Below are positions 738-56,851 of a stretch of 64,000 bases of DNA, piece by piece (position 1 is the first letter of the stretch; every line of letters starts with the position of its first letter). The translations under genes were made by a program, and so were the position numbers. The DNA is from Ochotona curzoniae (Eukaryota > Chordata > Mammalia > Lagomorpha > Ochotonidae). The stretch covers positions 24,218,001 to 24,282,000 of the forward strand of contig NW_024466599.1 in assembly GCF_017591425.1 (NCBI RefSeq), written 5' to 3'. The notes beneath the pieces are model-generated. The model saw only the letters and a program-made list of their open reading frames with translations. It made no database searches and was not told the origin of the DNA.

Positions 738-752
738 AAAATTCCAAAACTC
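738..752. repeat. target-site duplication, left copy
   Basis: This 15-bp sequence (aaaattccaaaactc) is repeated perfectly at 789-803 and brackets the tRNA fragment. It is preceded by ttt, so the nick site reads TT|AAAA, the preferred L1 endonuclease target. That makes L1-mediated insertion the natural explanation. Confidence 0.85.
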
Positions 753-788
753 GCCCCGGTTGCCTAATGGATAAGGCAGTGGCCTCCT
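753..788 (+). pseudogene. retroposed 5' half of tRNA-Arg(CCU)
   Basis: These 36 nt match the 5' half of mammalian tRNA-Arg-CCT: acceptor 5' strand (gccccgg), D arm with box A (tggataaggc), then the 5' strand of the anticodon stem and the anticodon cct. The copy stops at the last anticodon base. There is no T arm, box B, 3' acceptor strand, CCA or poly(A). Perfect 15-bp duplications flank it, so it is a retrocopy and not a decayed tRNA gene. Two more A residues could belong to either the tRNA (A37, A38) or the duplication. Lacking box B, it should not work as a polymerase III gene. It resembles the described 'tailless retropseudogenes', which are 3'-truncated copies of small RNAs mobilised by L1 without a tail. 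Confidence 0.85.
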
Positions 789-803
789 AAAATTCCAAAA
801 CTC
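789..803. repeat. target-site duplication, right copy
   Basis: Identical to 738-752, directly abutting the 3' end of the tRNA fragment with no A tail between them. Confidence 0.85.
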
Positions 804-37022: not shown

Positions 37023-37042
37023 CATGTGTTTCAAATTCTTTT
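37023..37042. repeat. perfect 20-bp target-site duplication, left copy
   Basis: catgtgtttcaaattctttt, identical to 37374-37393. Confidence 0.95.
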
Positions 37043-37373
37043 TTTAAAAAAGATTTATTTATTTTTATTACAAAGTCAGATATACAGAGAGGAGGCGAGA
37101 CAGAGAGGAAGATCTTCCGTCCAATGATTCACTCCCCAAGTGACCACAATGGCTGATGCTATGCTGATCCAAAGCCAGGGACCAGGAATCTCTTCCAGGT
37201 CTCCCACGCATGGGTGCAGGGTCCCAAAGCATTGGGCCGTCCTAAACTGCTTTCCCAGGCACAAGCAGGGAGCTGGATGGGAAGTGGAGCTACTGGGATT
37301 AGAACTGGTGCCCATATGGGATTCTGGTGCGTTCAAGGCGAGGACTTTAGCTGCTAGGCCATGCCGCCGGGCA
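37043..37373 (-). mobile_element. CSINE, full length, minus strand, inside the mariner-like element
   Basis: taaaaaagatttatttattt tail side, agagaggaagatcttccgtc, ccaatgattcactccccaag, cccaaagcattgggccgtcc, acaagcagggagctggatgg and a head ending in gccatgccgccgggc. Both 20-bp duplications are intact, so the insertion is fairly recent. Confidence 0.95.
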
Positions 37374-37440
37374 CATGTGTTTCAAATTCTTTTGCACCAT
37401 AACTAACTTATGTTTTAATTCCATTTATACTTACTTTGTG

Positions 37441-40400: not shown

Positions 40401-42449
40401 TGAGACAAAAAAAAAAGATCTTTTATTTCCTGAGGTCATTCTAAGCATACTTGTGAGACAGTCTGTGCATAACTTAGTGGTGTTGGTGGTAATGTGAGAA
40501 CTGAATAAAATATGTATTATCCTTTTTCACAAAGTTTGCATCAATCAGGTATTTAATTATTGTCTTCCTGTTGTTTTGTTGAACTGTTAAGCTCCAACAC
40601 AGAATATTGCATGAATAAGAATCAATTTTATTTAAGATCTGCACATGAGCTCAAATTTTTTAACTAGACACTGGAAATATAAACGTTTCACAGAGTAGTC
40701 TCTCAAGGAGATAGGTATGAGAGGGCTAAAGATACGTAAAATCTTGCAGTACGGTTTAAACTACCATGGTGGCTCTAAGGCATGCTTCTCAAGTAAAAGA
40801 GTTGTGTCAGTTAGAAAGGAAAGAAAGGAGAGAGACTTCAAGCATTCAAGGAACCGAAGCAGTAGGTGAAAAGAAGCTCAACCTAAAAACAAAACACCAT
40901 CCAGAATGACACAAACAGTACAGTACTGATCTAATCAGAAGGAATCCTGATTCATTTTCAGATTGGAATTTTGTCCTCAAAGCAATGGAGACTCTTTGAA
41001 GATGTTAAATCGGTAGAGGTTACAGTTGGTGGTGATACAGAAATCAATGTAACAGATATGAAAAATACGCTGGAGAGAAGTCCAGAGTGAAAAAGCCCAA
41101 TTAATGCACAGTGGTGATGATTCCACTGAGAAATGACAAAAATAGGGTGGGAGGTGCGAAAGAATAAAAACTAGAGAAGATAATAGTGACATATTTCTTC
41201 ACCAATTTTATATGAATGCGAGTTTGGAAGAAGTTTAGAGTGTGACTGAAGCCTAGTGTCATAAAATCTCTCACTACAGAATGTTCCAGGGCTATATTTT
41301 AGTCCACTGCACTTTGCTATAGATGATATGCAAATGAGGATTAATTATAAGGAAAGAATGCATGCCAAATTCCAGAATGCAAGTTTTTTTCAAATCTGGT
41401 TTTTTTACACTGATTTGTAGTTAATAGTTTTAAGCAGTAAAATATCCCTTAATAGGTAAAGAAATAAACTGATAAGCCATAGTATATCCATAAAACAGAG
41501 TATTTCTTGATAACAAAAGTAAATGAATGAAGTCATACATTTACAAAAAGAAAACAACAACAAGTAAGAAATGTACTTACCATTTTTTTCAGTGAGTACA
41601 GTCAGTCTGAAAGGGTATCTGTTATCGGATTCCAATTTTAGGGCATTTTGAAAAAGGAAAACTTTAGCTACAGTCAAAAGAAAGGTAATTTTCAGAGACT
41701 TGGAAGTAGATTAAACAGACATGAGCAGGTCATTTTTAGGTTGGTAACACATGACGCTGTTATGTTGAGTACATGACATTTTGTATTTCTCAAAGCAAAT
41801 AGAATTTTAGAATACAAAGAATGAAGCTTAATGCAAACAACTCCAGACTCCAAATATTAATAATTGCAGCAAAAACACAGCAGTTCCAATGCAACATTGT
41901 TATGCAGTGTAAGATATTAGTGGTAAGAGATACAGGGTGTGAGAAACTTTACTTTCTGAATGCCTTTCCATTAACCTCTGTTAATCTAAAAATAAAGTTT
42001 ACTTGGAAAAGAAACTTCTTGAAATAAAATATCAGAAAAATAATAGATTATTGGAAATATATTTTGTTAAGTCAGAAATTTGGAGGGCCTTTAGTTTTTC
42101 CGTTTCCCTTTTATCAAGGAATACAAATTTCTACAACTCCGTTTTTCCCATTTAATTATTTCTGATCAGATAAACAATTCTGTTCTGTAGAGGGCCCAGC
42201 ATATGCATTTGTATCTGACTCCAAGGGATTTTCCTCACGACTTAGTGAATTATTTGTAAGGCTCTATGTGGCCTCCCCATTTCACACTCTGTTTCTTCAG
42301 ATACTTCAGTGAGAGCCTTGTAAGTATTTGTGAATCATAAGTAGTCTATACTACAGGATGTTACCATGGCATCCAGTACAATTCAACTCAGAACAAGGGA
42401 AAGCAACCCATGGAGCAGCTGACTTTTTTTTTTTATAAAAAGTTGCCTC
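37441..42449. other. unassigned AT-rich DNA, about 5 kb
   Basis: No gene supported. Small features: a short (AC)n run at 37452-37463; a C-rich stretch followed by AT-rich sequence at 38790-39060 that might be an antisense L1 3' UTR; an A15 run at 40145-40159; and 40940-41080, which may be ancient repeat B. Frames do not exceed 104 aa and show no motif. Confidence 0.45.
42437..42449. repeat. 13-bp target-site duplication, left copy
   Basis: aaaaagttgcctc, repeated at 42796-42808 after the SINE tail. Confidence 0.9.
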
Positions 42450-42795
42450 GGGCCTGGCACCTTGGCCTAGCAGCTAAAGTCCTTGCCTTGAACGCACCAG
42501 AATCCCGTATGGGCAGCAGTTCTAATCCCGGCAGCTCAACTTCCCATCCAGCTCCCTGCTTGTGGCAGGGAGAAAAGCAGTCCAGGGAAAGCAGTTGAGG
42601 ACGGCCCAATGCTTTGGGACTTTGTACCTGCGTGGGAAATCTGGAAGAGGTTCCTGGTTCCCAGCTTCGGATCTGCGCAGCACAGCTGTTGCGGTCACTT
42701 GGGGGAGTGAATCATCGGACGGAAGATCTTCCTCTCTGTCTCTCCTCCTCTCTGTATATCTGACTTTGTAATAAAAATAAATAAATCCTTTTTTA
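42450..42795 (+). mobile_element. CSINE, full length, plus strand
   Basis: gggcctggcaccttggccta head, gttctaatcccggcagctca (box B side), ggacggcccaatgctttggg, tcacttgggggagtgaatca, cggacggaagatcttcctct, aataaaaataaataaatcc tail. The consensus gggaaagcag segment is partly duplicated (gagaaaagcagtccagggaa), adding about 16 bp. Confidence 0.95.
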
Positions 42796-43017
42796 AAAAA
42801 GTTGCCTCTACACAGAAATTTGGGAGCTACTCATTGTTCTGCACTGATAATTAAGACTTCCAGCTGATTTGAATCTTAACTACTTGTTTCAGAAATAAGG
42901 CAAAAAAGTAATAAATGTGTGAAGCACCCTGAAAATCATAGGTACAACTTCTCTCAAAGCTACTAGTTTTAAAACGATGTCAGTGTGTATCCCCTTAATG
43001 TTCTTGTCTCAGTTGAG

Positions 43018-43660: not shown

Positions 43661-43835
43661 CGATTCATTCATTTTTGAAGGACATTGGTATTTGAGCATC
43701 ACAGGGATGTGTACAATCACATGTATACTCAGCATGAAATAAAGAATTCTATTTTTGAATAATTAGTTTTGGTTATATAATTTCAAACTTATGCTTACCT
43801 ATTTACGGAAGTATGTTCCTGAGGTAGGTAAGTAG

Positions 43836-43837
<2 letters not shown>

Positions 43838-43887
<50 letters not shown>
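43838..43887 (+). repeat. (GT)25 microsatellite
   Basis: Fifty bases of uninterrupted GT. Confidence 0.98.
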
Positions 43888-43890
<3 letters not shown>

Positions 43891-45149
43891 CCATCCTCCT
43901 GTGGTGTCAGCATAATAAAACTGAACTCTAGGTTTGTTTACTTAGGTGCATGCACTATAAGCCAACGAAGCCATTCAGAACATTAAGCGCACTAATCTTG
44001 GTTTTGTTGTGCTGTAACATGACTGCTGTCTAAAACGGAGCTCCTGCAGAGATTCCTCAGTCTCCATTTACCTGCCTCAATTGATTTCAAATGGCATCAG
44101 TACAGTGGATGTTTATAAGTTTACTCCAATCCTGTAATCCACTTGATTCTCAGAGGCCCTTTAATTTATCAGGCCGTCTCTAGAATAGAATCAGTAAACT
44201 AGAGGCATTTATAGAGGGTATTGAGAGAAGTGCCCCACTCACTAATCAACAGTTGACCACCTTCTTAAAGGACCACCCCCTCGCTTCTCTTCTGATTCTT
44301 GTTTATTTTATGAGGGAGATCAGGAGGTATGTGGCATGTCACTTACGCCTGCATCTACGTTCAGCATATAGTTCTCCTCCGTCCCTATTTTCACTGTGGT
44401 TTACCATTCTTTGGCAATCACTTTCCCATTTGGATAACATCATTGCCAGATTGTTAATTGTAAAAGTTAGCTGAGAATTGCTTTTCCCCAAATCTGATTC
44501 AGCTAATACTTTAAACAATTTAATTAGCCATGCTTTTCGTTTCCAACTTAGTGACAGGACTTTGCATCATACTCAGTGTTCAAGGGATCTAGCAGGTCTC
44601 TCAAGTAGCTTTGGGGCTTCCCTCAGAATGTACCTTAACTTTTCCAGCAGCATAGGCTAAAGTTTACCAATTTAATCAAACTTTTTAAAAATTTTCAAAT
44701 CTTAATCTAACTCTGTCATACATGCAATAAAGTGTACAGTAATTAATGCACAGATATACTTTCACTAACAAGATATAAATGAATTTTCACCAGTATTTCT
44801 AACACCTACACACTTTTTGTTGTGCAGTAGGAATAACTACTGTGTTTGCTTTTAACTGTGTAAGTTGGTTGTGTGAAGCCTGCATTCTTTTGTATCTAGT
44901 CAGTTTTAATCAACATTGTTTACTTAATCTGTACTGTATTATGAAATTGTAAGTTCATGAGAAGTGCTGTGTAATGTGGAATTTTATAAATACATCACTG
45001 TTTATTCATGCTTTCACCAGTTGGTAGGCATTTGGGTGGTGATACTAAGAAAATTTGCTTACCTGTCCTGATGAATACCACGCATTTCTTTTTTTCTATG
45101 AATTATTTATATGAAGTGAACACCTTTCACATACTTAACAATGAAAAAT
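43888..45149. other. unassigned DNA
   Basis: No gene, SINE or L1 landmark. Frames of up to 73 aa, without motif. Confidence 0.45.
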
Positions 45150-47811: not shown

Positions 47812-48044
47812 ACCTTGTTAACTTCATAGCATTGTTAATTTCTTTTTTCCTCCTATTGTTGATTTTGTTTTGTGGCTTTTCATTTAAGGGGATGTATGAT
47901 AACTGTGTGATGCAGACTATCATATCCAGTATCATGTTATTTAACATTATGGCATTGTAAATTGCTATTTTTCTTCCTGTTGTTGATTTTGTATTGTGGC
48001 TTTTCATTTAAAGTAACTGTGTAATGGAGACTGTCATATCCAGA
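47812..48044 (+). repeat. tandem duplication inside the L1-tail module
   Basis: Two units, 47812-47929 (118 bp) and 47930-48044 (115 bp), each run from ...ttaacttcatagcattg (or ttaacattatggcattg) to catatccag. The homologous copy at 58411 has only one. Confidence 0.8.
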
Positions 48045-54889: not shown

Positions 54890-54904
54890 GTAAATGCTAT
54901 TTTT
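54890..54904. repeat. perfect 15-bp target-site duplication, left copy
   Basis: gtaaatgctattttt, repeated at 55233-55247. Confidence 0.95.
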
Positions 54905-55232
54905 TTTTAAAGATTTATTTTTATTATTTTTTCATTGGAAAGGCGGATATACAGAGAGGAGAGACAGAGAGGAAGATCTTCCGTCCGATGATTCACTCCC
55001 CAAGTGAGCGTAAAGGGCCGATACTATGCCAATCCGAAGCCAGGAGCCTCTTCCGGGTCTCCCACGCGGGTGCAGGGTCCCAAAGCTTTGGGCTGTCCTC
55101 GACTGCTTTCCCAGGCCACAGGCAGGGAGCTGGAAGGGAAGCAGGGCTGCCGGGATTAGAACCGGCGCCCATATGGGATCCCGGGCGTGCAAGGCGAGGA
55201 CCTTTAACCACTTGCGCCACCGCGCCGGGCCC
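54905..55232 (-). mobile_element. youngest-looking CSINE, full length, minus strand
   Basis: Best preserved copy, rich in CpG: aagatcttccgtccgatgat, tcttccgggtctcccacgcg, gggctgtcctcgactgcttt, gattagaaccggcgcccata, gggatcccgggcgtgcaagg, and a head ending in gccaccgcgccgggccc. Perfect 15-bp duplications. Retained CpGs imply little time for methylation-driven decay. Confidence 0.97.
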
Positions 55233-55247
55233 GTAAATGCTATTTTT
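55233..55247. repeat. perfect 15-bp target-site duplication, right copy
   Basis: Identical to 54890-54904. Confidence 0.95.
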
Positions 55248-56509: not shown

Positions 56510-56851
56510 TTGAGTCATTTTTTTATTTTTATTATTTTTTTATTGGAAAGGCGGATATACAGAGAGGAGAGACAGAGAGGAAGATTTTCCGTCCAATGAT
56601 TCACTCCCCAAGTGAGCGCAACGGCCGATACTATGCCCATCCGAAGCCAGGAGCCTCTTCCAGGTCTCCCACGCGGGTGCAGGGTCCCAGAGCTTTGGGC
56701 AGTCCTCTGCTGCTTTCCCAGGCCACAGGCAGGGAGCTGGAAGGGAAGCGGGGCCTCCAGGATAGAACTGGCGCCCATATGGGATCCCGGGCGTGCAAGG
56801 CGAGGACCTTAACCACTGCGCCACCGCGCCGGGCCCTGTTGAGTCATTTTT
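56510..56851 (-). mobile_element. young CSINE, minus strand, with target duplications
   Basis: Insert at about 56523-56838, between two copies of ttgagtcattttt (56510-56522 and 56839-56851). cacgcgggtgcagggtccc, gcgcccatatgggatcccgg, gcgtgcaaggcgaggacctt and gccaccgcgccgggccc are near-consensus. Close to the 54905 copy in subtype. Confidence 0.95.

Follow-up and report, generated by a model that had tools for sequence, protein, structure and literature searches.

A tailless retropseudogene of tRNA-Arg(CCU) in the genome of Ochotona curzoniae with its end in the anticodon loop

A short copy of tRNA-Arg(CCU) that stops in the anticodon loop raises the question of whether LINE-1 (L1), the probable copying machinery, used a tRNA that had already been cleaved or started copying inside an uncut one. 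The copy lies in a stretch of 64,000 nucleotides of the Ochotona curzoniae genome (assembly GCF_017591425.1, contig NW_024466599.1, positions 24,218,001 to 24,282,000), here called the window, to which all coordinates refer. As a single locus it matters little, being one more clean example of a catalogued class, and its own interest is low; the question of a cleaved template versus internal priming is of moderate interest.

The layout was read directly from the sequence. Positions 737–803 consist of a 16-bp sequence, a tRNA piece of 35–36 nt and the same 16-bp sequence again. The tRNA piece occupies 753–788 on the forward strand (36 nt, tRNA positions 1–36 in linear count). Position 753 is the first base of tRNA-Arg(CCU), so that the 5' end of the piece is complete, and 788 is the last base of the anticodon. 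The maximal exact direct repeat, TAAAATTCCAAAACTC, stands at 737–752 and 788–803 on the forward strand, the 3' copy following directly on the tRNA piece. Its length of 16 bp results from the T at 737 before AAAA and the T at 788 that ends the tRNA piece being the same letter of the repeat; a 15-bp version (738–752 and 789–803) leaves the first T in the 5' flank and assigns one T to the insert. Over these 15–16 bp the two copies of the target-site duplication are 100% identical, compared to the 8–35 nt and at least 70% identity that define the class discussed below. An oligo(A) tail is not present: the second repeat copy adjoins the tRNA piece, and the AAAA found there also belongs to the first copy. 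Between the duplications there are only the 36 nt, all of them tRNA, and no L1 sequence was co-inserted, which places the locus outside the tRNA/LINE-1 chimeras. With 36 nt of a full length that we take to be about 73 nt, the copy is longer than the minimal 30 nt and its 3' truncation exceeds the lower bound of 10 nt. The sequence, the repeat, the site, the exact 5' start and the lack of a tail are all seen directly.

The tRNA identity was tested against a printed mouse sequence, the 32-nt ArgCCT-2 assay oligonucleotide, which ends at position 32 (PMC8346661). The insert is identical to it at 29/32 positions, with differences at positions 6, 9 and 27, and thus lies above the 69% identity to the source RNA that is asked of the class. 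The next best ungapped place in the window, both strands considered, reaches 23/32 with this fragment, and in 10 simulated windows, one strand each, the best matches were 17–21 of 32. A chance origin of the tRNA match is not reasonable. Further tRNA-Arg sequences served as a lead only: compared with what we take to be tRNA-Arg(CCT), the insert shows 2/36 differences (positions 9 and 27) for one form and 3/36 for another, and compared with the presumed CCG, TCG, ACG and TCT arginine tRNAs it shows 11, 11, 14 and 11 differences in 36. At 761, tRNA position 9, the copy carries a T in place of the G of the mouse assay sequence and of the other arginine tRNAs compared. This T may go back to the source gene, to a mutation after the insertion or to an error in copying. 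As one difference at one locus, the change from G to T does not demonstrate a reverse transcriptase error at a modified base; neither 1-methylguanosine nor m1G is mentioned in the main text of PMC7237682.

ARAGORN and Rfam returned nothing at the insert; with half a tRNA no hit was to be expected, and the empty results do not count against the finding. Rfam gave 0 matches in the window at gathering level, and within 650–900 there were none even with E up to 5. Four weak matches away from the insert appeared at E up to 1, all below their gathering scores. A weak SCARNA7 match at 43729–43925 is probably spurious, since it contains a perfect GT dinucleotide run of 25 copies (43838–43887). Viral contigs scanned for the mammalian tRNA-Arg-CCT core yielded 0 matches.

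Exact 15-mers repeated at a start spacing of 16–150 form 123 pairs in the window, 112 of which are of low complexity and were dropped. The 11 remaining pairs sit at five places, the insert included, and 40 simulated windows passed through the same filter gave none. The other places are 6297 and 34019, both A+T-rich, 58083, a close repeat, and 47870, situated in an imperfect local duplication (47850–48035) with copies 124 bp apart and an 18-bp exact core. This local duplication is unlike an insertion footprint. In view of the four other places the repeat alone would not prove an insertion; the repeat together with a tRNA start at its inner edge does. A positive control with exact repeats of at least 12 bp at a spacing of 20–400, low complexity dropped, gave 13 rows, two of which are this place. 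Four of the 11 others flank SINE-like elements of 316–346 bp with 13–20-bp duplications, two (10877 and 18753) were inspected and found unlike the tRNA-half insert, and the remaining five are the 6297, 34019, 47870 and 58083 places and 25642. The four SINE-like elements of the window (37023–37393, 42437–42808, 54890–55247 and 56510–56851), recognised by eye and presumably similar to lagomorph C repeats, have A-rich or A+T-rich ends, whereas the tRNA piece has no A-rich end. Their duplications of 13–20 bp indicate that the genome has taken up insertions of broadly this type. Full-length L1 duplications peak at 14–16 bp (PMC2912911), and the 15–16 bp at the insert fall within this peak.

An L1-endonuclease-type site, TT/TAAAATT, lies at 735–743 on the forward strand. 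It fits TT/WAAAAWW, the consensus of tailless retropseudogenes for which Noll et al. 2015 (PMC5322556) derived a logo from 1,183 tailless copies, and with the nick moved by one base it fits TT/AAAA as well. On the reverse strand, the first nick would have fallen at the 736/737 or the 737/738 boundary. In the window, 78 sites match TT/WAAAAWW (34 and 44 on the two strands), so that the fit is necessary rather than strong and weak when taken alone. The first-pass annotation had described 36 nt of a tRNA-Arg-CCT 5' half, tailless and in perfect 15-bp repeats; this is confirmed, with the maximal repeat of 16 bp as the only correction. The TT|AAAA site noted there agrees with the L1-type TT/TAAAATT, and the interpretation as retroposition of a 5' tRNA-Arg(CCU) piece, tailless and flanked by target-site duplications, is supported.

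We file the insert as a tailless tRNA retropseudogene made by target-primed reverse transcription with the L1 machinery. A description of the class dates from 2004, and the catalogue of Noll et al. 2015 (PMC5322556) comprises 2,402 human cases. In these tailless retropseudogenes the RNA is cut short at particular positions of single-stranded internal stretches (PMC5322556), and the same single-stranded truncation is known in tRNAs (Schmitz et al. 2004, as cited by Noll et al. 2015). Of nine features considered for the class, seven are clearly present at the locus; terminal complementarity to the target, treated below, and an empty orthologous site complete the list.

The tRNA match runs on beyond the anticodon to position 38, and A37–A38 are at the same time the first letters of the target AAAA. 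The TAA at 788–790 (forward strand) is common to tRNA positions 36–38 and the target, and the template end is not placeable within it. Owing to these shared letters the template may have ended, or priming may have occurred, anywhere in positions 35–38. In the numbering that we assume, all of them belong to the anticodon loop (32–38), a single-stranded region of the RNA. Seven of the approximately 73 tRNA positions lie in this loop, which means that with no preference an end there would be met by chance at about one locus in ten. Terminal complementarity to the target amounts to 2–3 nt. L1 sites usually have a T ahead of AAAA, and the target AAAA with this T could account for the complementarity; since AAAA alone explains A37–A38, the two or three letters are weak evidence for pairing. 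For tailless copies, terminal complementarity of 2–18 nt was given by Noll et al. 2015 (PMC5322556). The first-pass annotation had set the break exactly where tRNA halves end and considered it more than a routine pseudogene on this ground. The break is not exact in this sense, as positions 35–38 all fit through the shared letters, and the further claim is not supported, a single-stranded end being an ordinary feature of the class (PMC5322556). The tailless class predicts ends in single-stranded loops, and this copy is not distinguished by ending in that of the anticodon.

The template was probably a whole or nearly whole tRNA-Arg(CCU) on which L1 primed inside the anticodon loop. An L1-type endonuclease would nick the reverse strand at TTTT/A (or TTTTA/A), and the freed 3' end would pair with UAA(G) at positions 36–39, in the anticodon loop and at its edge. 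The L1 reverse transcriptase would then copy from the pairing site to the exact 5' end of the RNA, and a second nick 15–16 bp away would give rise to the duplication. What we infer here is the enzyme, the use of a whole tRNA as template and priming at an internal position. In the work of Noll et al. 2015 (PMC5322556) on 5S and U2 RNA, convincing oligo(A)-tailed copies of the truncated RNAs were not found, the libraries held no convincing matching truncated RNAs, and internal priming was favoured. Similarly, Doucet et al. 2015 (PMC4476161) propose internal priming for snRNAs, whose copies end in single-stranded purine-rich stretches after a T that is counted in the duplication. U36-A37-A38-G39 resembles such a purine stretch preceded by T (PMC4476161).

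A ready-made 5' half is a possible, though less probable, template: a tRNA cleaved at the U36/A37 step that was available in germ-line cells or in the early embryo and that L1 would have copied from its 3' end with little or no pairing. Angiogenin-type enzymes cut at steps such as U36–A37, and one reading of the insert places its end precisely at U36; this end is, however, ambiguous over positions 35–38, and an uncut tRNA likewise has a single-stranded anticodon loop. Fragments of tRNA-Arg-CCT have been reported from mouse sperm and increase after dexamethasone, and the mouse assay sequence of 32 nt opens at tRNA position 1 like the insert (PMC8346661). These data come from epididymal sperm, for which the authors propose uptake from exosomes, and therefore do not show a half at the time when germ-line insertions arise (PMC8346661). 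Among 21 human tRNA/LINE-1 chimeras with half-length tRNAs the region of 1–37 nt is frequent, and tRNA halves are suggested by the authors as their source (PMC13174262); on the other side, truncated RNAs ending at the tailless end points were not found by Noll et al. 2015 (PMC5322556), whose search concerned 5S and U2 RNA. In primer extension, m3C32 of tRNA-Arg(CCU) stops reverse transcriptase (PMC7237682), and the copy reads through position 32 despite this modification. A tRNA half would carry m3C32 too, and it weighs on both templates alike.

Internal priming and the ready-made half fit the junction about equally, and a single junction cannot separate them. Both mechanisms named in the first-pass annotation, a half as template and priming in the loop, have counterparts in print. 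Published work, as far as it is cited here, leans to internal priming for tailless copies and suggests halves for tRNA/LINE-1 chimeras. Our preference for internal priming follows mainly from this general evidence, the junction not being decisive. It appears rather unlikely that a tRNA-Arg(CCU) half is recorded here in germ-line DNA, a stress-type cleavage product having by itself served as L1 template. If this were true, the solitary tailless tRNA copies of a genome would together form an archive of earlier tRNA cleavage in the germ line. For the question of a cleaved template versus internal priming, Arg-CCU is a fair test case, as it combines the U36–A37 step, a purine stretch to which an L1 primer might pair and a blocking base at position 32 (PMC7237682).

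That the piece stems from a tRNA-derived SINE, or from DNA-level copying of part of a tRNA gene, with a flanking repeat that is secondary or arose by chance, is disfavoured and highly improbable: the SINE-like elements of the window do carry tRNA-like heads, two reverse-strand stretches that by eye lie in SINE-like elements (43655–43624 and 56830–56799) match the Arg-CCT fragment at 23/32 and 22/32 compared to 17–21 in the simulations, and four other short-range repeats of at least 15 bp occur in the window without a visible retroposition footprint, but the insert reaches 29/32, lacks a SINE body and begins with tRNA position 1 directly inside a perfect repeat. Apart from matches of 11 letters, blastn revealed no second copy in the window.

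With 0 differences in 16 bp between the repeat copies, a probable upper limit for the age can be given. The chance of this outcome is (1-2d)^16, d being the divergence per copy. It drops to 0.05 when d reaches 0.085, so that a lower divergence, and with it a younger insertion, is probable. A blastn search of 1–2400 against the window returned only the region itself and showed no internal empty site. Downstream of the insertion, at 1246–1531 on the forward strand, a decayed L1 ORF1-like remnant with an RBD-like and then a dsRBD-like part was detected, a weak observation that serves as context. Its matches to PF02994 (Transposase_22, E 0.013) and PF17490 (Tnp_22_dsRBD, E 0.099) are both below the curated cut-offs and stand in the expected order but in different forward frames; the third forward frame gave 0 families in this search of the forward strand, and the remnant contains many stops. 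The tRNA copy carries no visible sign of function and is most likely neutral.

Compared to known systems, the insert agrees with the tailless retropseudogenes (PMC5322556) in a 5'-complete and 3'-truncated tRNA, the lack of oligo(A), a duplication within 8–35 nt, the TT/WAAAAWW site and the end in a single-stranded loop, may also share their short terminal complementarity, and in the features testable here it does not differ from the class as described in that catalogue. With the L1-mobilised, 3'-truncated snRNA pseudogenes of Doucet et al. 2015 (PMC4476161) it shares the single-stranded end, the purine stretch preceded by T, the duplications and the L1 site, whereas the source RNA is an snRNA there and a tRNA here. 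Similarities also exist to the tRNA/LINE-1 chimeras published in 2026 (PMC13174262), whose tRNA part is typically of half length with the region 1–37 frequent, and which show duplications of 9–19 bp in 8 checked cases. In contrast to these chimeras, in which an L1 copy, mostly in antisense orientation, is attached to the half, the tRNA-Arg(CCU) piece described here is solitary.
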